Source: Rhizomicrobium sp. (GTDB taxonomy: Bacteria; Pseudomonadota; Alphaproteobacteria; Micropepsales; Micropepsaceae). Taken from it: DNA of 64,000 bases. Every line of letters begins with the position of its first letter. The first letter of the stretch is position 1. The stretch lies in the NCBI GenBank assembly GCA_037200045.1, contig JBBCHM010000001.1, positions 434,001 through 498,000 of the forward strand, given 5' to 3'. The notes below the pieces were generated by a model. The model worked only from the letters and a program-made list of their open reading frames with translations, did not search any database and was not told the DNA's origin. The position numbers were made by a program, and so were the translations under genes. Positions 1 to 10,344 of the stretch are shown one piece after another.

Positions 1-1771
1 GGCCAACCTGAAATTCGTCCACCAGGACACCAACGGCAAGCTCACCGTCTTCGCCGACTACGGCTACAAGGTCGAGCCGAACGAAGACGCCACCGGCTAC
101 GGCAACCAGCAGACCGCCGCCGCCGCCGGCTTCACGCCTTATATCCGCCCGTTCCTGTTCCCCAACCTCGCCGCCGCCATCGCCAGCCTCAGCCACGGCA
201 CGCCGCCGGCGGCGCAGGGCAACAATTTCTCCAACTACGACAGCGCCGCCCAGCGCGAGGACGCGCTCGCCTATGTGCAATATGACTGGAACATCACGAA
301 CGACATGACCTGGTCGAACCAGGCCTATTTCCACCACGACACCGGCCGCGGCATCGTCGCCGGCCCGATCAACCAGGCGGGGCTGCCGGGCCTCTTCGGC
401 ATCTATTTCCCCAGCCTGGTGGTCGGCGGCAGCCCGACCACGACGGCCTCGCTCGACAACATCGTCACGAAGTTCGGCGGCACCGGCTATGAGGTGCGCA
501 CGACCGAATACCGCATCAACCGCACCGGCGAGCGCTCGACCTTCAACTGGCAGCTCGGCGACCATCAGATCGAGGCCGGCGTCTGGTACGAGCGCAACGC
601 CTCGGCCACCGGCCGCCGCTGGTATCCGTTCGGCGGGGCCAATAACGACCTGACGCCCTATGACGTGCCGCGCAATCCGGCCTTCACGCAGTACGACGTG
701 CGGATGAAGACCGACGACGTGCAGATCCACGTCCAGGACCAGTGGCGCATCCTGCCGACCCTGCTGCTCCAGGCCGGCGTCAAGGCCAGCCTGCAGACCG
801 CGAGCAACGTCGTGCTCACGCAGCAGCAGAACCTCGCGGCCGGCAATGCCTTCGGCCTGCCCGCGACCAATCCGCCGGTGGTGTTCCCGACCGGTTCGAT
901 CACCTCGGACAACTGGTTCCTGCCGCAGGTCGGCGCGATCTGGGACGCGACCGACAACGAGCAGGTGTTCGTCAACGTCCAGAAGAACATGCGCCAGTAC
1001 ATTCCCTATGCCGCGGGCAGCAATTTCTACGGCGCCTCGCCGTGGAGCCTGGGCAGCCAGCAGGCCTTCGACAACTTCAAGGCGACGGCGCATCCGGAGA
1101 CGTCATGGACCTATGAAGCGGGCGTGCGTTCGCATCGCGACATCGACTTCGGGCCGCTCACCGCCGTCGAGGGGCAGCTCAGCTATTACCATGTGAACTT
1201 CTCGAACCGGCTGTTCAACGTGGCGACCTACAACTTCATCAACCCGAACCCGTCGATCCTGGTCAATGTCGGCGGCGTGACGACGGACGGCGCGGATCTC
1301 GCGACCACGCTGCATTTCGGCGATCATTTCCAGTTCTACAACGGCCTGTCCTACAATTTGTCGACCTACGACACGAACTACTCGACCGTCTCGGGCGGCG
1401 TGTCGACGGTCGTGCCGATCGCCGGCAAGCAGGTGCCGCTGACGCCCAACTGGCTGGAGAAGTTCGTGGCCAGCACCAATTGGGACTCGTTCGAGGCCCA
1501 GGTCACGGGCGATCTCGTCGGCCGCCGCTTCGCCTCCTATCTCAACGACCAGAAGGTCGCCAGCACCTTCCTGGTCGGCCTGGAGGCGAGCTACACCGTC
1601 GATCTGCCGCTGAACGAATACCTCCACCGCCTGAAGATCAGCGTGAACGCCACCAATCTGGGCGACGTCCAGGGCGTTTCCACCGCGGTGGTGACGGGCG
1701 CCTCGGGCGGCTATCAGGCCTACCCGCTGGCCCCGCGCATGGGCTTCGTGACCCTGGGCGTGAACTACTAG
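1..1771 (+). CDS. TonB-dependent receptor, C-terminal part (5' truncated by window edge)
   Basis: This is the outer-membrane beta-barrel part of a TonB-dependent receptor, which imports a substrate that cannot be told from this part. The frame is open from base 2, so the gene starts outside the window and the ATG at 275 is internal. About 589 residues are visible. They show alternating aromatic/polar strands typical of a barrel and end in ...TLGVNY, the terminal aromatic residue that the BAM machinery expects. The plug domain and TonB box are not in the window. A hairpin follows the stop codon. The family is well supported; the ligand is unknown. Confidence 0.85.
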   Translation, partial: ANLKFVHQDTNGKLTVFADYGYKVEPNEDATGYGNQQTAAAAGFTPYIRPFLFPNLAAAIASLSHGTPPAAQGNNFSNYDSAAQREDALAYVQYDWNITNDMTWSNQAYFHHDTGRGIVAGPINQAGLPGLFGIYFPSLVVGGSPTTTASLDNIVTKFGGTGYEVRTTEYRINRTGERSTFNWQLGDHQIEAGVWYERNASATGRRWYPFGGANNDLTPYDVPRNPAFTQYDVRMKTDDVQIHVQDQWRILPTLLLQAGVKASLQTASNVVLTQQQNLAAGNAFGLPATNPPVVFPTGSITSDNWFLPQVGAIWDATDNEQVFVNVQKNMRQYIPYAAGSNFYGASPWSLGSQQAFDNFKATAHPETSWTYEAGVRSHRDIDFGPLTAVEGQLSYYHVNFSNRLFNVATYNFINPNPSILVNVGGVTTDGADLATTLHFGDHFQFYNGLSYNLSTYDTNYSTVSGGVSTVVPIAGKQVPLTPNWLEKFVASTNWDSFEAQVTGDLVGRRFASYLNDQKVASTFLVGLEASYTVDLPLNEYLHRLKISVNATNLGDVQGVSTAVVTGASGGYQAYPLAPRMGFVTLGVNY

Positions 1772-1810
1772 AGGAGCGTCCGGGCCTCGGCGGGCCGGCG
1801 GACTTTATCG

Positions 1811-1855
1811 GGGCCGTGCAAGCAGAGATTGCTTGCGCGGCCCTGCTTCTTTAAA
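1811..1855 (+). terminator. Probable intrinsic terminator after the TonB receptor gene
   Basis: A 14-bp stem (1811-1824 with 1830-1843, one G-T wobble) and a 5-base loop are followed by a short T-rich stretch (TGCTTCTTT). It lies between the receptor stop and the ettA ribosome site. The T tract is weak, so termination efficiency is uncertain. Confidence 0.55.
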
Positions 1856-1891
1856 AGCGCCCTCTCGCCCACGCACCCAAGGAACAAGCCG

Positions 1892-3550
1892 ATGGCCGGC
1901 CCCGAATTCGTCTATGTGATGAAAGGTCTTTCCAAGACCTATCCCGGCGGCAAGCAGGTCCTGAAGGACATCTGGCTCAGCTTCTATCCCGGCGCCAAGA
2001 TCGGCATCGTCGGCGTCAACGGCGCCGGCAAGTCCACCCTGATGAAGATCATGGCCGGCCTCGATCCGGATTTCACCGGCGAGGCTTGGGCCGCCAAGGG
2101 CGTGCGGATGGGCTACCTGCCGCAGGAACCGACGCTCAATCCCGACAAGGACGTGCGCGGCAACGTCATGGAAGGCGTCGCGGCCAAGCAGGCGCTGGTC
2201 GACCGCTACAACGAGATCGCCGCCAATTATTCCGACGAAACCGCCGACGAGATGGCCCGCCTCCAGGACGAGATCGAGGCCCAGGGCCTGTGGGATCTCG
2301 ATTCCCAGGTCGACCAGGCGATGGACGCGCTGCGCTGTCCCGATCCCGACGCCGATGTCTCCACGCTGTCGGGCGGCGAGCGCCGCCGCGTCGCGCTGTG
2401 CAAGCTGCTGCTCGACGCGCCCGACATCCTCTTGCTCGACGAGCCGACCAACCATCTCGACGCCGAGTCGGTCGAATGGCTGGAGAAGACGCTGCGTGAC
2501 TACAAGGGCTGCATCATCCTCGTCACCCATGACCGCTATTTCCTCGACAACGTCACCGGCTGGATCCTGGAGCTCGACCGCGGCAAGGGCATCCCGCACG
2601 AAGGCAATTATTCGTCCTTCCTGGTGGTGCAGGAGAAGCGGTTGCGCCAGGAAGGCGCCGAGGAAGCGGCGCAGGAGCGCGCCATCGCCGCCGAGCGCGA
2701 ATGGATCCAGAAATCGCCCAAGGCCCGCCAGGCCAAGTCCAAGGCGCGCATCAACGCCTATGAAGATCTGGTGGCCAAGAGCAACGAGCAGCGCAGCGTC
2801 ACCAACCAGATCATCATCCCGGTCGCCGAGCGCCTGGGCGGCGTGGTGGTCGAGGCCGAGGATCTCGCCAAGGGCTATGGCGACCGTCTGCTCTACGAGC
2901 ATGTGAATTTCAACCTGCCGCCGGGCGGCATCGTCGGCGTCATCGGCCCCAACGGCGCCGGCAAGACGACATTGTTCCGTATGCTGACGGGCCAGGAGGC
3001 GCCCGATGCCGGCATGCTGCGCATCGGCCCGACCGTGCAGCTCGGCTATGTCGATCAGAGCCGCGACGCGCTCGATCCCAACAAGACGGTGTGGCAGGAA
3101 ATCTCCGACGGCCTGGATGTGCTCGAACTCGGCAAGCGCACGATGAACTCCAGAGCCTATGTCGGCGCCTTCAACTTCAAGGGCGGCGACCAGCAGAAGA
3201 AGGTCGGCCAGCTCTCGGGCGGCGAGCGCAACCGCGTGCACCTCGCCAAGATGCTGAAGTCCGGCGCCAACCTGCTCCTGCTCGACGAGCCGACCAACGA
3301 TCTGGACGTCGACACGCTGCGCGCGCTGGAATCGGCGCTGGAGGAATTCGCCGGCTGCGCCATGATCATCAGCCACGACCGCTGGTTCCTCGACCGCATC
3401 GCGACCCACATGCTGGCCTTCGAGGGCGACAGCCATGTCGAATGGTTCGAGGGCAATTACCAGGACTACGAGGCCGACAAGAAGCGCCGCCTCGGCATCG
3501 ACGCCGACCAGCCGCACCGGATCAAGTACAAAAGGTTCGCGCGGACCTAA
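1892..3550 (+). CDS. ettA: Energy-dependent translational throttle protein EttA (ABC-F ATPase)
   Basis: EttA is a soluble ABC-F protein that binds the ribosomal E site and gates the first peptide bond according to ATP level. The start chosen is ATG 1892 (MAGPEFVYVM), nine bases after AAGGA; an upstream ATG at 1829 lies inside the terminator hairpin. At 552 residues it matches the E. coli length (555). Visible are Walker A 1 (GVNGAGKST, about residue 41), signature LSGGERRR, Walker B LLLLDEPTNHLD, the interdomain linker with the charged arm, Walker A 2 (GPNGAGKTT), and the family-typical tail RRLGIDADQPHRIKYKRF. It converges with the PIN toxin gene, sharing 4 bases at the stops. Confidence 0.95.
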   Translation: MAGPEFVYVMKGLSKTYPGGKQVLKDIWLSFYPGAKIGIVGVNGAGKSTLMKIMAGLDPDFTGEAWAAKGVRMGYLPQEPTLNPDKDVRGNVMEGVAAKQALVDRYNEIAANYSDETADEMARLQDEIEAQGLWDLDSQVDQAMDALRCPDPDADVSTLSGGERRRVALCKLLLDAPDILLLDEPTNHLDAESVEWLEKTLRDYKGCIILVTHDRYFLDNVTGWILELDRGKGIPHEGNYSSFLVVQEKRLRQEGAEEAAQERAIAAEREWIQKSPKARQAKSKARINAYEDLVAKSNEQRSVTNQIIIPVAERLGGVVVEAEDLAKGYGDRLLYEHVNFNLPPGGIVGVIGPNGAGKTTLFRMLTGQEAPDAGMLRIGPTVQLGYVDQSRDALDPNKTVWQEISDGLDVLELGKRTMNSRAYVGAFNFKGGDQQKKVGQLSGGERNRVHLAKMLKSGANLLLLDEPTNDLDVDTLRALESALEEFAGCAMIISHDRWFLDRIATHMLAFEGDSHVEWFEGNYQDYEADKKRRLGIDADQPHRIKYKRFART

Positions 3551-3951
3551 ACGTCGGGCGTGATCAGCGCGACGTCGGGAAAATATGTCCGATAGCGTCG
3601 CACATCGCGCGTCAGGATCGGCAGGCCGACGATCTGCGCATGCGCGCCGATGAAGAAGTCGGGAAGATTGCTGGTCCGCGTCCCGCCGGCGCTTCGATAA
3701 CGGCCGAAGACTTTGCCGGCCAGGAAAAGCGCGGACTTGGGTATCGCCTGAAATTGCAGGTCGATGTCGCGCAGCGATTGATCGAGCGCGATCTCGTTGG
3801 CGCTGTGCACCGCGATCTCGGAATAAACGACTTCATCGACGAACAGGGCTCTCTGCGCGGCCTGCTTGTTCAACGCCTCGAAAGACCATTCGAACCACGT
3901 CGGGTCCCGCGCGAGGATGTCGATGACGACATTGCTGTCGATCAGGGTCAC
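3547..3951 (-). CDS. PIN-domain ribonuclease toxin (VapC-like)
   Basis: This is a PIN-domain endoribonuclease, the probable toxin of a type II pair. The 134 residues carry the acidic metal-binding residues in order: Asp in MTLIDSNVVID, Glu in VVYSEIAVH, Asp in LPDFFIGAHA, and Asp in LTRDVRRYRTYFP near the C-terminus. The start is GTG 3951, which overlaps the antitoxin stop by four bases (GTGA), so translation is probably coupled. VapC family members cut tRNA or rRNA; the target here cannot be read from sequence. Confidence 0.85.
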   Translation of the reverse strand: MTLIDSNVVIDILARDPTWFEWSFEALNKQAAQRALFVDEVVYSEIAVHSANEIALDQSLRDIDLQFQAIPKSALFLAGKVFGRYRSAGGTRTSNLPDFFIGAHAQIVGLPILTRDVRRYRTYFPDVALITPDV

Positions 3952-4211
3952 TTACGCTCGCCGGTGACCGGGTCGCGCTCGCCGCGTGTCATATCCATGA
4001 TCTCATCGGTCGTGATGCCGCGAATGACACCACGCTTGGACACTTCCAGGAGGCGTGCCCTGTAGTCGTCGCGGGCCCCTTGCTTCTCGATGATGATGCC
4101 GCCCGACGCAGTGGCGCGCACCTCCACCTTGTCGCCGGGCCCAATGCCGACCGCGTCGCGGACGTCCTTGGGCAGCGTCACCTGGCCTTTTATTGTCACA
4201 GTGGTCGTCAT
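3948..4211 (-). CDS. AbrB/SpoVT-type antitoxin of the PIN toxin
   Basis: An 87-residue DNA-binding antitoxin. The N-terminal 45 residues are a swapped-hairpin AbrB domain (TTTVTIKGQVTLPKDVRDAV...GDKVEV). The C-terminal half would wrap and neutralise the PIN toxin, and ends GERDPVTGERK. The start ATG 4211 is chosen because the AbrB domain begins there; the frame runs further upstream only through the operator. Antitoxin first and toxin second with a 4-base overlap is the usual order. A perfect 9-bp inverted repeat lies ten bases upstream of the start. Confidence 0.85.
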   Translation of the reverse strand: MTTTVTIKGQVTLPKDVRDAVGIGPGDKVEVRATASGGIIIEKQGARDDYRARLLEVSKRGVIRGITTDEIMDMTRGERDPVTGERK

Positions 4212-4220
4212 GACCGCCTC

Positions 4221-4248
4221 GGTATTACTTCCGGCGAAGAGTAATACC
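4221..4248 (-). promoter_or_regulatory. Inverted-repeat operator of the toxin-antitoxin operon (candidate)
   Basis: GGTATTACT (4221-4229) and its exact complement AGTAATACC (4240-4248) are separated by ten bases, starting ten bases upstream of the antitoxin ATG. Centre-to-centre spacing is about two helical turns, as expected for two AbrB-type dimers. AbrB/MazE-type antitoxins autorepress from such sites; binding here is inferred. Confidence 0.6.
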
Positions 4249-4276
4249 ACCGCATTTTGCGGTCAAATCGCGAGCG

Positions 4277-5393: not shown

Positions 5394-6527
5394 CTACGCC
5401 ATCGCCACCAGGACGATCGCGCTCGCCATGGTCAGCACCAGCACCGGGATCGCCCAGGTCAGGTAGGTGTAGGTCTGCTCCTGCACCCAGCGCCCGAACA
5501 GTTTCTCCACCACGTTGAAGCGGTAGAACACGACGTTGATCAGAAGGCTCAATCCCAGCGTGATGTAGTTGAGCGCGAACAGCCGGTTCACCGGATTGTC
5601 GCCGGTGCTCAGGACCTGGTAGGCCTGGTTCACCGTGAAGTTCAGCGCGATCACCGCGAACAGCCCGCCGATGATCAGGTTCACCAGTTCGAAGGTCTCG
5701 ATCCCGAACTTGCCGTCCTCCATGTGGTTCAGCCAGATCGCCAGCAAGGGAATGAGCAGCGAGGCGAACAGCGGAATGAAGATCGACGCCAGCACCGATC
5801 CGGGCTCGCGCGCCACCGTCAGCGAGGCGACGGCGCGGGTGTGCATCGCGCCGTACCAGCCCTTGAGCGGCTGGCTGGTCAGCGCCACGGTCTTGATCGA
5901 CCAGCCGGCCAGCGACGCATCGGGATCGGCCTGGCTGAAGTCCAGATCGTCCTGGTCGTATTGCAGCACCACCTGGTCGGAGGTCTGGTTGCGGATCGCC
6001 GCCTCGATCTGCAGCTTCTGGCGGTCGAACGGGAAGCGCGTCACCTCATAGGGCGTGGCGAACTCGCCGGTGACCCGCTTGATCATCTCCACGTCGCCGC
6101 TGGGGAAGATGCGCAGGCCCAGATTGGTGTAGGTCGGATCGCCCTTCTCGTTGGCGACCTCGATCGCCGGCACCCAGATAGTGGCGAGCTGCGCCTTCGC
6201 GTCGTCGCCGCGATAGACCTTCGGCGGATCGGTCTGTTCCTCGTCGGGACGCCGAAGGCTCGGCACTTCCCAGCGCAGGCGCAGATCGACCGTTCCCTTG
6301 AAGGTGCCGGCGTTCTCGTCGAACGATTCCAGATCGACGAAGGCGACGCCGACCTTCACGATCAGCGGCGTGCCCTTTTCCATCGGCATGGTCGGCGGCA
6401 TCGCGGTGGTGGTCGCGGGCGGCGGCTCCTGGCCGGCGATGGCGATGCCGCCGAGGCCGAGCGCGACGAGCGCCAGCGCCAGCAGCGAGCGCTTCGCGCC
6501 GCCGCGCTTCAGAAAGGAGCGCTTCAT
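5394..6527 (-). CDS. Pentameric ligand-gated ion channel homologue (Cys-loop/pro-loop family)
   Basis: A prokaryotic member of the nicotinic-receptor superfamily. Of 377 residues, 1-31 are a signal peptide and about 50-240 the beta-sandwich ligand domain. The diagnostic pro-loop FPFD lies at 165-168 (RFPFDRQKLQI, no flanking Cys, as in GLIC and ELIC). Four membrane helices follow: M1 ~244-266, M2 ~278-300, M3 ~315-337, M4 ~353-376. Aligning the Asn near the end of M2 with GLIC puts Glu280 near the -1' selectivity ring and Asn283 near 2', which would suit a cation pore; this is inference. The ligand is unknown. It overlaps the upstream dCache gene by four bases. Confidence 0.85.
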   Translation of the reverse strand: MKRSFLKRGGAKRSLLALALVALGLGGIAIAGQEPPPATTTAMPPTMPMEKGTPLIVKVGVAFVDLESFDENAGTFKGTVDLRLRWEVPSLRRPDEEQTDPPKVYRGDDAKAQLATIWVPAIEVANEKGDPTYTNLGLRIFPSGDVEMIKRVTGEFATPYEVTRFPFDRQKLQIEAAIRNQTSDQVVLQYDQDDLDFSQADPDASLAGWSIKTVALTSQPLKGWYGAMHTRAVASLTVAREPGSVLASIFIPLFASLLIPLLAIWLNHMEDGKFGIETFELVNLIIGGLFAVIALNFTVNQAYQVLSTGDNPVNRLFALNYITLGLSLLINVVFYRFNVVEKLFGRWVQEQTYTYLTWAIPVLVLTMASAIVLVAMA

Positions 6528-7639
6528 TCGCCGTGCCCCGGCTTGAACGTCCCCTGAAGTTCGGCGAGGTCCTGGATTTCCTTGCAGAACTTGTCGGTGT
6601 CCTGGGCCGGTTCCTCGCCGCCCGCCTCGGCGCGCAGCCGTTCGGTGACGATGCTCAAGGGGCGCAGCAGGAAGCCGCGGATCACGATGATGATGGCGCC
6701 GGCCATCAGCACGATGCCGAAGATCGCCGCCGCGATCTGCCAGACGAAGGACTGGCTCGCCGCCGCGCGGGACGGGCTGAAATCGCGCGCCAGCGCGATC
6801 ACGCCCAGCGACTCGCCGGCGCCGTTGCGCAAGGGCACCAGCAGCACGCCGTAGGGAATCCCGTCGGAATCGCGCGCGTAACGCACCGGCTCGCTCACGC
6901 CGGCGAGATCGGCGTCGCCGATCAGCGCCTTCATCAGCACGGCGTTGGTGGTGTGATAGCGGATGAAATGGCTGACGCGGTTCTGGTCGCTGTAGATCGA
7001 CGGATCGACGCCCTTGGCGATGTCGCGCAGCGGCTTCTCTTCCACATAGAGCGTGGCGTCCAGCCCATAGGTCGCCTTGAGCTGATCGAGCAGCGGGCCG
7101 AAATCCAGGCCGAATTCGAAGCTGCCGATATGGGCGCCGGCCGCGTCATGGATCGGCGCGATGCCGAAGATCGCCGGGCCCGAGCGCGCGATGGCGAAGC
7201 CCTTGCGCGGCTGGTGGTCGCGGTTCACCGCCACCACCATCGGCCGGCTGCGCGTCAGGTCGTCGCCGAAATTGGCCGGCGATTGCAGGCGCAGCAGCGA
7301 GGTCGCGGGCGGAAGGTGGAACTGCGCCTGCGAGACGCCATGGCGGTCGCGCTGCACGGCGAACATCTCGCTATAGAGGGCCACCAGCTTGTTGTGGTCC
7401 TTGGCGGCCACCGCTTCGCGCGTGATGTCGAGATCGGCGACCATGTCGGCGCGGGCCAGCGCGCGCTCGGCGGCGCTGTCGAGCGAGGAGGTCAGGATCG
7501 ACTGCATGAGCTGGTACTGGCCCTGCTCGACCGAGTCGGTCAGGCCGCTGAACAGGCGGTTCGAAACGAAGGTCAGCGTAAGGATGATCACCGCGGACGC
7601 TGCGATCAGCGCAACCGGCGCACTTCGGCGGAATGTCAT
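6524..7639 (-). CDS. Membrane dCache_3 sensor protein with no output domain
   Basis: A 371-residue receptor-like protein: membrane helix ~8-28, periplasmic region ~29-297, second helix ~299-321, then only about 50 cytoplasmic residues. The periplasmic part resembles the double-Cache sensors (dCache_3) of chemoreceptors and kinases: the signatures FHLPPATSLLRLQSP, FGDDLTRSRPMV, and IGSFEFGLDFGPLL are visible. The tail RPLSIVTERLRAEAGG looks like the start of a HAMP linker, but no kinase, cyclase, GGDEF or MCP domain follows. Start ATG 7639 has AGGGG seven bases upstream. Its stop overlaps the channel-gene start (ATGA), so the two are probably made together. Confidence 0.8.
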   Translation of the reverse strand: MTFRRSAPVALIAASAVIILTLTFVSNRLFSGLTDSVEQGQYQLMQSILTSSLDSAAERALARADMVADLDITREAVAAKDHNKLVALYSEMFAVQRDRHGVSQAQFHLPPATSLLRLQSPANFGDDLTRSRPMVVAVNRDHQPRKGFAIARSGPAIFGIAPIHDAAGAHIGSFEFGLDFGPLLDQLKATYGLDATLYVEEKPLRDIAKGVDPSIYSDQNRVSHFIRYHTTNAVLMKALIGDADLAGVSEPVRYARDSDGIPYGVLLVPLRNGAGESLGVIALARDFSPSRAAASQSFVWQIAAAIFGIVLMAGAIIIVIRGFLLRPLSIVTERLRAEAGGEEPAQDTDKFCKEIQDLAELQGTFKPGHGE

Positions 7640-7775: not shown

Positions 7776-8417
7776 TTAGTGATATGCTTTCGCCAGATCG
7801 TGCAGATGGCTGATCAGCGTGGCGATGGAGCCGTTGTTCTGGCCGAGGAACGAGCTGAACTGGTCGCGTTCCTCGATCGCGAGCCAGATTCCCGCCACCG
7901 AGAAATCGATCACCACGAAGCGGCCATTGTCGGTCAGCACGCGGAAATCCACTTCCAGCGGCTGCTGGCCGCTCTGGTCGTTGGGATCGACCATCTGGGT
8001 CGTGACGATCGTGTCGCCCGGCGCGCGCTCCTGGGAACCGGTCACGCGCAGGGTCTGCCCGGAATATTTCGTGAAATAGGACTGGTACACCGCGATGGCG
8101 TAGTTCTGGAACGCGGCCGCGAAAGCGTCCTGCTCCTGCGGCGTCGCGGTGCGGCGGTATTGGCCGAGCGTGAAATTCGCGATGCGGTGCATGTCGGTCA
8201 GGCCCAGGATGAAGCCCTGGAACTGGGACTTGCGCAGATCCGCGCTGGTCGCCTTGTTGTTCAGGATCGCGAGACCCTTGCTCACATTGGCGTTGACGAA
8301 GGCCTCCGCCGGCGCCGCCGCCATCGCGGGCGCGGCGAACAGGCTCGCCGCCGCCACGATCAAGGCGAGCACCCCGCGGCGCGCGACGGCCGGCAAGCGA
8401 AAATACATCTCGGGCAT
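7776..8417 (-). CDS. mlaC: MlaC-like periplasmic phospholipid-binding protein
   Basis: The periplasmic shuttle of the Mla pathway, carrying phospholipids between the MlaA complex in the outer membrane and the MlaFEDB transporter. The 213 residues start with a Sec signal peptide ending near APAMAAAPA. They contain family-typical stretches such as FTLGQYRRTATPQEQDAF, QEQDAFAAAFQNYAIAVYQSYF and DFSVAGIWLAIEERDQFSSFL. Start ATG 8417 follows an AAGGGAAAG site. mlaA lies 68 bases upstream on the same strand. mlaFEDB is not in the window. Confidence 0.9.
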   Translation of the reverse strand: MPEMYFRLPAVARRGVLALIVAAASLFAAPAMAAAPAEAFVNANVSKGLAILNNKATSADLRKSQFQGFILGLTDMHRIANFTLGQYRRTATPQEQDAFAAAFQNYAIAVYQSYFTKYSGQTLRVTGSQERAPGDTIVTTQMVDPNDQSGQQPLEVDFRVLTDNGRFVVIDFSVAGIWLAIEERDQFSSFLGQNNGSIATLISHLHDLAKAYH

Positions 8418-8485
8418 CGGAAATTCTTTCCCTTGGGGGCCGCGGAAAGGATCGGGCCCGCTTGTGGCAAGTTCGTGGCAGGCCT

Positions 8486-9214
8486 TCAGAACTCCGGCAA
8501 ATCCTTCGTGTCCGGCCGGCCGTTGCGAATTTCGTTGTTGCGGAGCTGCCTGTAAAGGCTGCGCAGCGACGCGTAGTAGTCCACCGACCCGCGCTCTATC
8601 CCGGCGACCGTCTCATAGGTCTGCCCGCGCAGGTCCAGGAGGCTGAAATAATAGCGCCCCGCGTCCCACCACAGATGCTGCTTGAAATGCACATAGTTCC
8701 AGGGGTCGAGCACCACGGCATCGACCAGGAAGCCGACGGCGTCGCGCGGCGGCTGCGGCCCGAACAGCGGCGCCACCAGATAGGGTCCTTCCGGCGCGCC
8801 CCACACCGCCAGGGTCTGGCCGAAATCCTCGCTATGAGAAGGGATATGAAACTTCTTCGTCGCCGGATCGAACATCCCGCCCAGCCCGACGGTCGAGTCG
8901 ATCAGGAAGCGCGCCATTGTCTGGCCGGCGCGACGCGCTTCGCCCTGCAGGACGTCGTTCATGAAGACCGTCGGCGCGGCGAAATTCTGCAGCAGATTGT
9001 GCACCACCCGCCGGCCGGGATCCGGCACGACATAGAAATAGGCGCCGACCGTCGGCAGCACGACATAGCGGTCGAGCTTGCCGTTGAACGCCAGGGTCTG
9101 GCGGTTCTGCGGCTCGAACGGATCGTTGTTGGCGATCATCTCCGGCGTCGGCGTCGCGCAGCCCGCGAGCGCCGACACGCCCAGAGCGGCGAGCATTGCG
9201 CGTAACCTGAACAT
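8486..9214 (-). CDS. mlaA: MlaA (VacJ) outer-membrane lipoprotein
   Basis: The outer-membrane component of the Mla lipid-asymmetry system, which removes phospholipid from the outer leaflet. The 242 residues begin with a lipoprotein signal peptide and lipobox LAGC. The VacJ domain follows, with the hallmark NDPFEPQNRQTLAFN, FIDSTVGLGGMFD-like and EDFGQTLAVWG...GPYLVAPLFGP stretches. ATG 9214 is preferred; a GTG two codons upstream (9220) is possible. It is the first gene of the mlaA-mlaC pair. The C-terminal residues NEIRNGRPDTKDLPEF continue past the core as an amphipathic tail. Confidence 0.93.
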   Translation of the reverse strand: MFRLRAMLAALGVSALAGCATPTPEMIANNDPFEPQNRQTLAFNGKLDRYVVLPTVGAYFYVVPDPGRRVVHNLLQNFAAPTVFMNDVLQGEARRAGQTMARFLIDSTVGLGGMFDPATKKFHIPSHSEDFGQTLAVWGAPEGPYLVAPLFGPQPPRDAVGFLVDAVVLDPWNYVHFKQHLWWDAGRYYFSLLDLRGQTYETVAGIERGSVDYYASLRSLYRQLRNNEIRNGRPDTKDLPEF

Positions 9215-9336
9215 CCCCACCGCCTGGCTTTTCGTCAGTCTATATCGGCAGAGCGGTTAATGGCGAACAGGCCGCCGAAACTTGGGAGAAAACCTGGGGC
9301 AGGCCGTCCCACTCCCACCGAAAGGGATTGCATAAT

Positions 9337-9358
9337 CATATAAAGATATGTTTATATG
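9337..9358 (+). promoter_or_regulatory. SahR-type operator in front of the methionine-cycle operon
   Basis: CATATAAA (9337-9344) and its exact complement TTTATATG (9351-9358) flank six bases (GATATG). The palindrome ends 20 bases before the sahR start and contains a TATAAA that could be the -10 hexamer, so bound repressor would block transcription. ArsR-type SahR regulators of proteobacteria are known to use AT-rich 20-22-bp palindromes of this look. Occupancy here is inferred. Confidence 0.7.
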
Positions 9359-9378
9359 CGCCTGAAAGGGAAGCGATT

Positions 9379-10344
9379 ATGGACGATCTGGTAGCCATGC
9401 TGCGCGCCGCGGGCGATCCGACCCGCCTGCGCCTGTTGCTGCTCCTGCGCCAGGCCGAGCTGACGGTCAGCGAGCTGGTCGACATCGTCGGCCAAAGCCA
9501 GCCGCGCGTCTCCCGCCATCTGAAGCTCCTGACCGAGGCTCAGCTCATCGAGCGCTTCAAGGAAGGAAGCTGGGTGTTCTATCGCGCCTCCGACCGCGGC
9601 CGGGGCGCCGAGCTCTGCACCGCCATCGCCGGCATCGCCGCGCCGCAGGAGGCCGACCTCAAGCGCCTCGCCCAGGTGCGCGAGGCCCGCGCCGCCGAGG
9701 CCGCCGCCTTCTTCAAGGCCAATGCCGCCGAATGGGAGCGCATCCGCGGCCTGCACGCGCCGGACAAGGATGTGGAAGCCGCCATCGTTCGCCACATCGC
9801 CGAACAGCCGATGGATTCGCTGCTCGATGCCGGCACCGGCACCGGCAGCATGCTCGAACTGCTCAGCCCGTATGTGAAGCGCGCGGTCGGCATCGATGTC
9901 AGCCCGGAAATGCTCGCCATCGCCCGCGACCGGCTGGCGCGCGCCGACATCCATCACGTCCAGGTCCGCCTCGGCGACGTCTATCGCCTGCCATTCCCGA
10001 CCGGCAATGCGCTGAGCGGCTTCGACGCCGTCCTCTTCCACCAGGTGCTGCACTTCCTCGACGATCCGCAGGCCGCGGTGATCGAGGGCGCTCGCGTGCT
10101 GCGCGACGGCGGCCGCCTCTTGATCGCCGATTTCGCGCCGCATGCGCTGGAATTCCTGCGCGAGGATTTCGCCCATCGCCGCCTTGGTTTCTCCGACCGC
10201 GAGATCCATGGCTGGCTCGACGCCGCCGGCCTCAAATCGCTCACCGGCGAGACCGTCGTGCCGCGCGCCGCCGGCGCCGACAAGCTCATCGTCAAGATAT
10301 GGCTCGCGCAGAAGTCCGCGAGCGCCAAGGCAGAGGCCGCATGA
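9379..10344 (+). CDS. sahR: ArsR-family regulator fused to a SAM-dependent methyltransferase domain (SahR-type)
   Basis: A 321-residue two-domain protein. Residues 1-90 are an ArsR winged helix ([16 protein letters not shown] ... [21 protein letters not shown]). Residues ~135-310 are a class I methyltransferase fold with the SAM/SAH-binding motif [15 protein letters not shown] and [10 protein letters not shown]. SahR regulators sense S-adenosylhomocysteine and control methionine-cycle genes; in alphaproteobacteria this fusion commonly precedes metF and metH, as here. Start ATG 9379 has AGGGAAG upstream; the frame further upstream runs through the operator. It overlaps metF by four bases. Confidence 0.85.

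Follow-up and report, generated by a model that had tools for sequence, protein, structure and literature searches.

On the reverse strand of the window (the whole 64,000-nucleotide stretch of Rhizomicrobium sp. DNA analysed here) a gene for a membrane sensor with a dCache_3 domain is followed directly by a gene for a homologue of the pentameric ligand-gated ion channels (pLGICs). The features of this gene pair are as follows.

6524..7639, minus strand: gene for the dCache_3 membrane sensor, 371 aa (Pfam dCache_3, 2.7e-24; AF2 model; orthologue upstream of the channel at 38/38 loci)
7550..7615, minus strand: sensor TM1, about residues 9-30 (AF2 helix 3-68; hydrophobic stretch in the sequence)
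7082..7501, minus strand: membrane-distal Cache lobe of the sensor, about residues 47-186, holding R117, D127 and R132
6782..7072, minus strand: membrane-proximal Cache lobe of the sensor, about residues 190-286 (AF2 secondary structure)
6677..6748, minus strand: sensor TM2, about residues 298-321 (AF2 helix 288-339; hydrophobic stretch in the sequence)
6527..6676, minus strand: HAMP-like cytoplasmic tail of the sensor, residues 322-371 (profile alignment to chemoreceptors)
6524..6527, minus strand: ATGA, four-base overlap of sensor stop and channel start (sequence; RTGA in 48/53 clade loci)
5394..6527, minus strand: gene for the pLGIC homologue, 377 aa
5808..6386, minus strand: extracellular ligand-binding-type β-sandwich of the channel, residues 48-240 (Pfam match 48-214; AF2 strands 55-240)
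6024..6035, minus strand: FPFD pro-loop motif, residues 165-168 (sequence; F165, P166 and F167 invariant in 86 relatives)
5691..5711, minus strand: insert of about seven residues in the M1-M2 loop on the cytoplasmic side, around residues 273-279 (its precise limits vary with the alignment)

An earlier note on this DNA had described two genes overlapping by ATGA, a double-Cache membrane sensor followed by a pro-loop channel, and a sensor separate from the channel. The overlap is present in the sequence, the two protein types are borne out by Pfam matches and AF2 models, and the window holds two genes and no fused frame, so sensory domain and channel do not share one polypeptide as in DeCLIC-type fusions. 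The channel has the pLGIC plan that the note had read in it, a β-sandwich with the FPFD pro-loop and four transmembrane helices in the pLGIC fold, and its extracellular domain matches Neur_chan_LBD at 6.5e-13 (49 bits, cut-off 26). The solved sequences nearest to it are those of GLIC, and at 93.7 bits against a curated cut-off of 500 it lies outside the NCBIfam subfamily LGIC_1. The sensor carries its dCache_3 domain (86.5 bits, cut-off 25.7) between two transmembrane helices, as also seen in the model, and each protein is the single match to its family in the window's genome. In having a Cache gene of its own that shares a predicted operon with the channel gene, the window pair has the arrangement described by Tasneem et al. 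2004.

The channel gene is followed on the same strand by a gene for a Bestrophin-like membrane protein (PF14023; 4513-5361, minus strand), which is not kept beside the pair elsewhere, save for a weak relative upstream in locus L010, and MlaC and MlaA genes (7776-9220, minus strand) lie upstream of the pair on the same strand. Further out are AbrB/MazE-type antitoxin and PIN-domain genes with a four-base overlap, likely a toxin-antitoxin pair (3547-4250, minus strand), and an ArsR-type HTH fused to a methyltransferase (9328-10344, plus strand), after which come what we take to be methylene-THF reductase and methionine synthase genes.

The pairing is constant throughout this channel clade. The sensor gene lies directly upstream on the same strand at 53 of 53 examined loci from four phyla, a count made up, after removal of duplicates, of 38 loci, four second copies, L054, the window and nine further relatives, and including near-identical rows. 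Conserved co-occurrence in related genomes, on which the earlier note had staked its reading beforehand, is thus found at every clade locus examined. The exact RTGA overlap is present at 48 of the 53 (34 + 5 + 1 + 8); four-base overlaps are common in bacterial operons. The 38 loci come from a scan of a genome collection with two short channel peptide patterns, which favour close relatives; in every one the sensor gene directly precedes the channel gene in the same orientation, with contig ends cutting the sensor in L016 and L031, and 34 have RTGA. Of the other four, two are Shinella loci where one base separates the genes, one has broken frames and in one the frames run together through a missing base. 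In the last (L013:5780-7996, plus strand) the base is lacking close to where the sensor frame ends, possibly a sequencing error, giving a single 739-aa sensor-channel frame; none of the six matches to this joined frame carries both domains.

The 38 pair-bearing genomes hold 43 Neur_chan_LBD matches, 42 of which adjoin a sensor. These include the four second copies (L041, L042, L044 and L045), L041 and L044 being strongly diverged. L042 and L016, from the same metagenome assembly, share 92.6 percent identity across 990 bases, so L042 may be a strain variant of the same gene, in which case the count becomes 52 of 52. The single unpaired match, L046, is a distant channel in a Verrucomicrobia genome that also holds L029. 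A search with the Pfam family in a phylum sample (398 genomes) found eight channels spread over seven genomes, among them that of the window: all three clade channels are paired (L050 being the same record as L024), and the five non-clade channels have no sensor match. Apart from the window, a class sample (385 genomes) contained three full-length channels, all unpaired, and one fragment, and in 178 genomes of the family of Azorhizobium oxalatiphilum all 11 clade channels are paired, two of them counted before, with one weak fragment lacking a sensor. The weak fragments L060 and L090 showed no sensor match, a weak match in G284 was left out, and the pLGICs of other clades that were examined have no upstream sensor, L052 offering just 411 bases upstream before the contig start.

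The trees place this link in a single event. A channel tree with 49 rows separates the 41 paired ones, by a single branch (support 100/99), from the eight unpaired ones (L046-L049, L051-L053 and L056); a 58-row tree agrees, and the unpaired channels have long branches whose internal order is unsure. The paired rows come from Pseudomonadota, Myxococcota, Acidobacteriota and Verrucomicrobiota, those outside Pseudomonadota being, by title, nearly all metagenome assemblies. The sensor tree, which is without the nine TM2-ending sensors described below, likewise has 41 channel-linked sensors on one side of one branch (100/98) and 12 output-bearing relatives on the other. Sensor and channel distances correlate at 0.951 over 40 pairs, L013 being additionally set aside for this comparison. 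The trees are without the fragments L016, L042, L055 (unpaired), L060 and L090 (the last concerning the 58-row analysis only), the broken L032, and the duplicate cuts L002, L043, L050, L057-L059, L061-L066, L079 and L080. As the link arose once, the 53 loci stand for one event and a bond that has not been seen broken, not for many independent gains.

A single origin, together with a patchy occurrence, would also suit an inherited accident in which two unrelated genes spread as a cassette. Four genomes sampled from the window's own genus have neither gene, which makes the pair dispensable. This reading is already disfavoured and we regard it as extremely improbable, as neither a split nor an inversion nor the loss of one partner is seen although both proteins have diverged, across 40 pairs, to a mean pairwise identity of about 0.44. 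A crude clustering of reading frames also found no other family across more than nine of the 38 flanks.

The sensor itself resembles a chemoreceptor deprived of its signalling end. A Pfam search finds no kinase, MCP or cyclase domain in the window sensor, and MCPsignal is likewise not one of the 17 families listed across 26 relatives. Chemoreceptors of dCache_3-HAMP-MCPsignal architecture make up ten of the 12 output-bearing relatives (the subset fetched of those listed); of the remaining two, L075 is cut off by the end of its contig and L076 stops close to a contig end, at a point where L075 continues. The loss of cytoplasmic output that the earlier note had proposed is confirmed by this comparison, MCPsignal being present in 10 of the 12 and missing from the window sensor. 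A profile alignment of the channel-linked sensors with the 12 relatives is continuous over 345 columns through the HAMP segment (E 1.6e-59). We call the tail HAMP-like because Pfam HAMP is barely detected, in just two of 26 sensor relatives (best E 0.011). Elsewhere in the 38 channel-bearing genomes ten sensor-domain matches lie away from channels, scoring up to 136 bits, in open frames 639-1567 aa long; another ten, all weak, mostly cover the HAMP end.

The cytoplasmic part is lost to different degrees. In the window's main clade the sensor ends after the HAMP-like segment, and in nine relatives of the Xanthobacteraceae family (L081-L089) the sensor stops about a dozen residues past TM2 and has no cytoplasmic domain; three rhizobial sensors (L041, L044 and L054) keep a longer tail. 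The channel-linked sensor is probably descended from a chemoreceptor, and the series from chemoreceptor through HAMP-like end to bare TM2 end reads as a stepwise loss of the cytoplasmic role, the order of whose steps we infer. A weak dCache_3-GGDEF relative found by protein search (P0245) and Pfam's description of dCache_3 as a kinase sensor domain count against a purely chemoreceptor ancestry. A further relative, P0244 (627 aa), has 4HB_MCP/TarH-type domains as well as dCache_3.

Conservation is distributed differently in the two groups, which differ in diversity. The distal lobe is about equally conserved in the main clade and the 12 output-bearing relatives (0.53 and 0.51), the proximal lobe and TM2 are more conserved in the main clade (0.46 vs 0.28 and 0.48 vs 0.25, respectively) and the tail less so (0.30 vs 0.37); L065 (the same locus as L054), L013 and L035 were set aside here. 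All 48 short sensors and all 12 output-bearing relatives have R117, D127 and R132 in the distal lobe, which suggests a retained ligand site. We consider it reasonably likely, judging from these sequence comparisons, that sensor and channel form one receptor-channel unit, in which a periplasmic small molecule acting on the sensor gates or tunes the channel. The molecule would bind the distal Cache lobe in the periplasm, the two proteins would touch, the membrane-proximal lobe and transmembrane helices are predicted to gate or tune the channel, and binding would thereby change ion flow. Against this reading weigh the single event behind the 53 loci, the dispensability of the pair and the lack of a two-domain protein among the six matches to the joined L013 frame.

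The sensor could also be a partner in assembly, stability or trafficking of the channel that passes no ligand signal. The α2δ subunits of animal calcium channels promote channel expression, which we count in favour of such a role. They too carry Cache domains (PMC4822843, in the part of the paper available), and the gene order at the 48 overlapping loci, with the sensor first, would suit co-translational assembly. An assembly partner would, however, be less expected to keep the three distal-lobe residues as in the output-bearing relatives, and we judge this explanation unlikely.

More doubtful still is signalling by the sensor to a chemoreceptor array or kinase, through pairing with another receptor, the channel being merely co-expressed. 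The HAMP-like tail of the main clade suits it, and a signal to the cytoplasm could still be possible there; CheW is found in 35 of 39 pair-bearing genomes. However, CheW was not found in the other four, among them Mesorhizobium sp. LHD-90, an isolate. With just one MCPsignal match in the window's genome as well, chemotaxis does not look required. With no cytoplasmic part left in the nine TM2-ending relatives, we think array signalling very unlikely. Indeed, as these relatives keep just the periplasmic and membrane parts, a sideways signal to the channel is well motivated, and the sensor-to-channel signalling proposed in the earlier note is partly supported.

Another reading, following a proposal in the part of Tasneem et al. 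2004 available, has the sensor concentrate a solute for the channel's own binding domain or hand it over, leaving the sensing to the channel. The channel does keep a full ligand-binding-type domain. In locus L053 an unpaired pLGIC frame (1072-2781, minus strand) directly adjoins a gene for a PhnD-type phosphonate-binding protein (160-1068, minus strand; PF12974, 2.1e-65), similar to the PBP neighbours of bacterial pLGICs reported in 2004 (PMC549065, as far as its available text goes). The sensor, however, has a membrane anchor at each end and still shows the TM2 arrangement of signalling receptors, which makes a solute hand-over seem distinctly unlikely.

Returning to a receptor-channel unit, a more specific form may be offered tentatively, again from sequence. 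The pair may be a split ionotropic receptor, in which a chemoreceptor that lost its kinase-controlling end became an obligatory ligand-binding subunit, placing the agonist site on another protein than this Cys-loop-type channel. The M1-M2 insert is present in 38 of 38 main-clade rows and missing from all 20 other rows of the 58-row alignment. In the main clade the leftover HAMP segment may, in the general form of the unit as in this one, dock on the enlarged loop at the cytoplasmic pore mouth, a contact suggested by one coincident change (tail kept, insert present), and the TM2-ending branch would couple through periplasm and membrane alone.

To our knowledge, the stimulus that opens most bacterial relatives of the neurotransmitter receptors in their own cells is an open question. 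A dedicated sensor for a whole channel clade would, if true, make the natural stimulus directly testable by comparing the channel with and without its partner, and would represent a chemotaxis receptor turned ion-channel subunit. The core idea of a stand-alone Cache protein cooperating with a bacterial pLGIC is already in print. In the text available, Tasneem et al. 2004 (PMC549065) described bacterial pLGICs fused to Cache domains and, from Rhodopseudomonas, an ART-LGIC gene whose predicted operon includes one stand-alone Cache gene; they suggested that the two proteins work together, possibly in chemotaxis. New here are the constancy and breadth of the pairing, the likely chemoreceptor origin, the graded loss of the cytoplasmic part and the M1-M2 insert in the tail-keeping clade. 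No later paper on Cache-pLGIC pairs is among the search matches listed, most subscription papers and all bioRxiv preprints lying outside that search. A term search of the main text of Jaiteh et al. 2016 (PMC4795631) found neither "Cache" nor "operon", the available part of a Cache census (PMC4822843) has no ion-channel entry under dCache_3, and a Campylobacter paper, at the place found, just cites Tasneem et al.

The known systems each share part of this plan. For GLIC, the proton-gated channel of Gloeobacter with the same pro-loop and four-helix plan, we know of no sensor partner; the main-clade M1-M2 loop is about seven residues longer than in the other aligned pLGICs, an alignment that GLIC stands outside. 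The Rhodopseudomonas operon resembles the window in its separate Cache protein beside a bacterial pLGIC, but its account, in the text available, is without the channel clade, origin, overlap or sensor anatomy. DeCLIC (PMC9897478, available in part) has an extra periplasmic domain that influences gating, as proposed for the window sensor, but there the domain is fused to the channel, has two jelly-roll lobes and involves calcium, whereas the window sensor is a separate, membrane-anchored Cache protein. The dCache_3-HAMP-MCPsignal chemoreceptors are homologous to the channel-linked sensors from TM1 on, the profile alignment running through the HAMP segment, and share H108 and N139, as well as the three distal-lobe residues above, with the window sensor (12 of 12 output-bearing relatives). 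The MCP signalling domain is missing from the channel-linked sensors, one branch of which is without any cytoplasmic part. The α2δ subunits of animal voltage-gated calcium channels, a different channel family with a different topology, are likewise separate, Cache-bearing channel subunits (PMC549065 and PMC4822843, in their available parts), and the window pair, if the receptor-channel unit is true, would be their bacterial parallel in plan.
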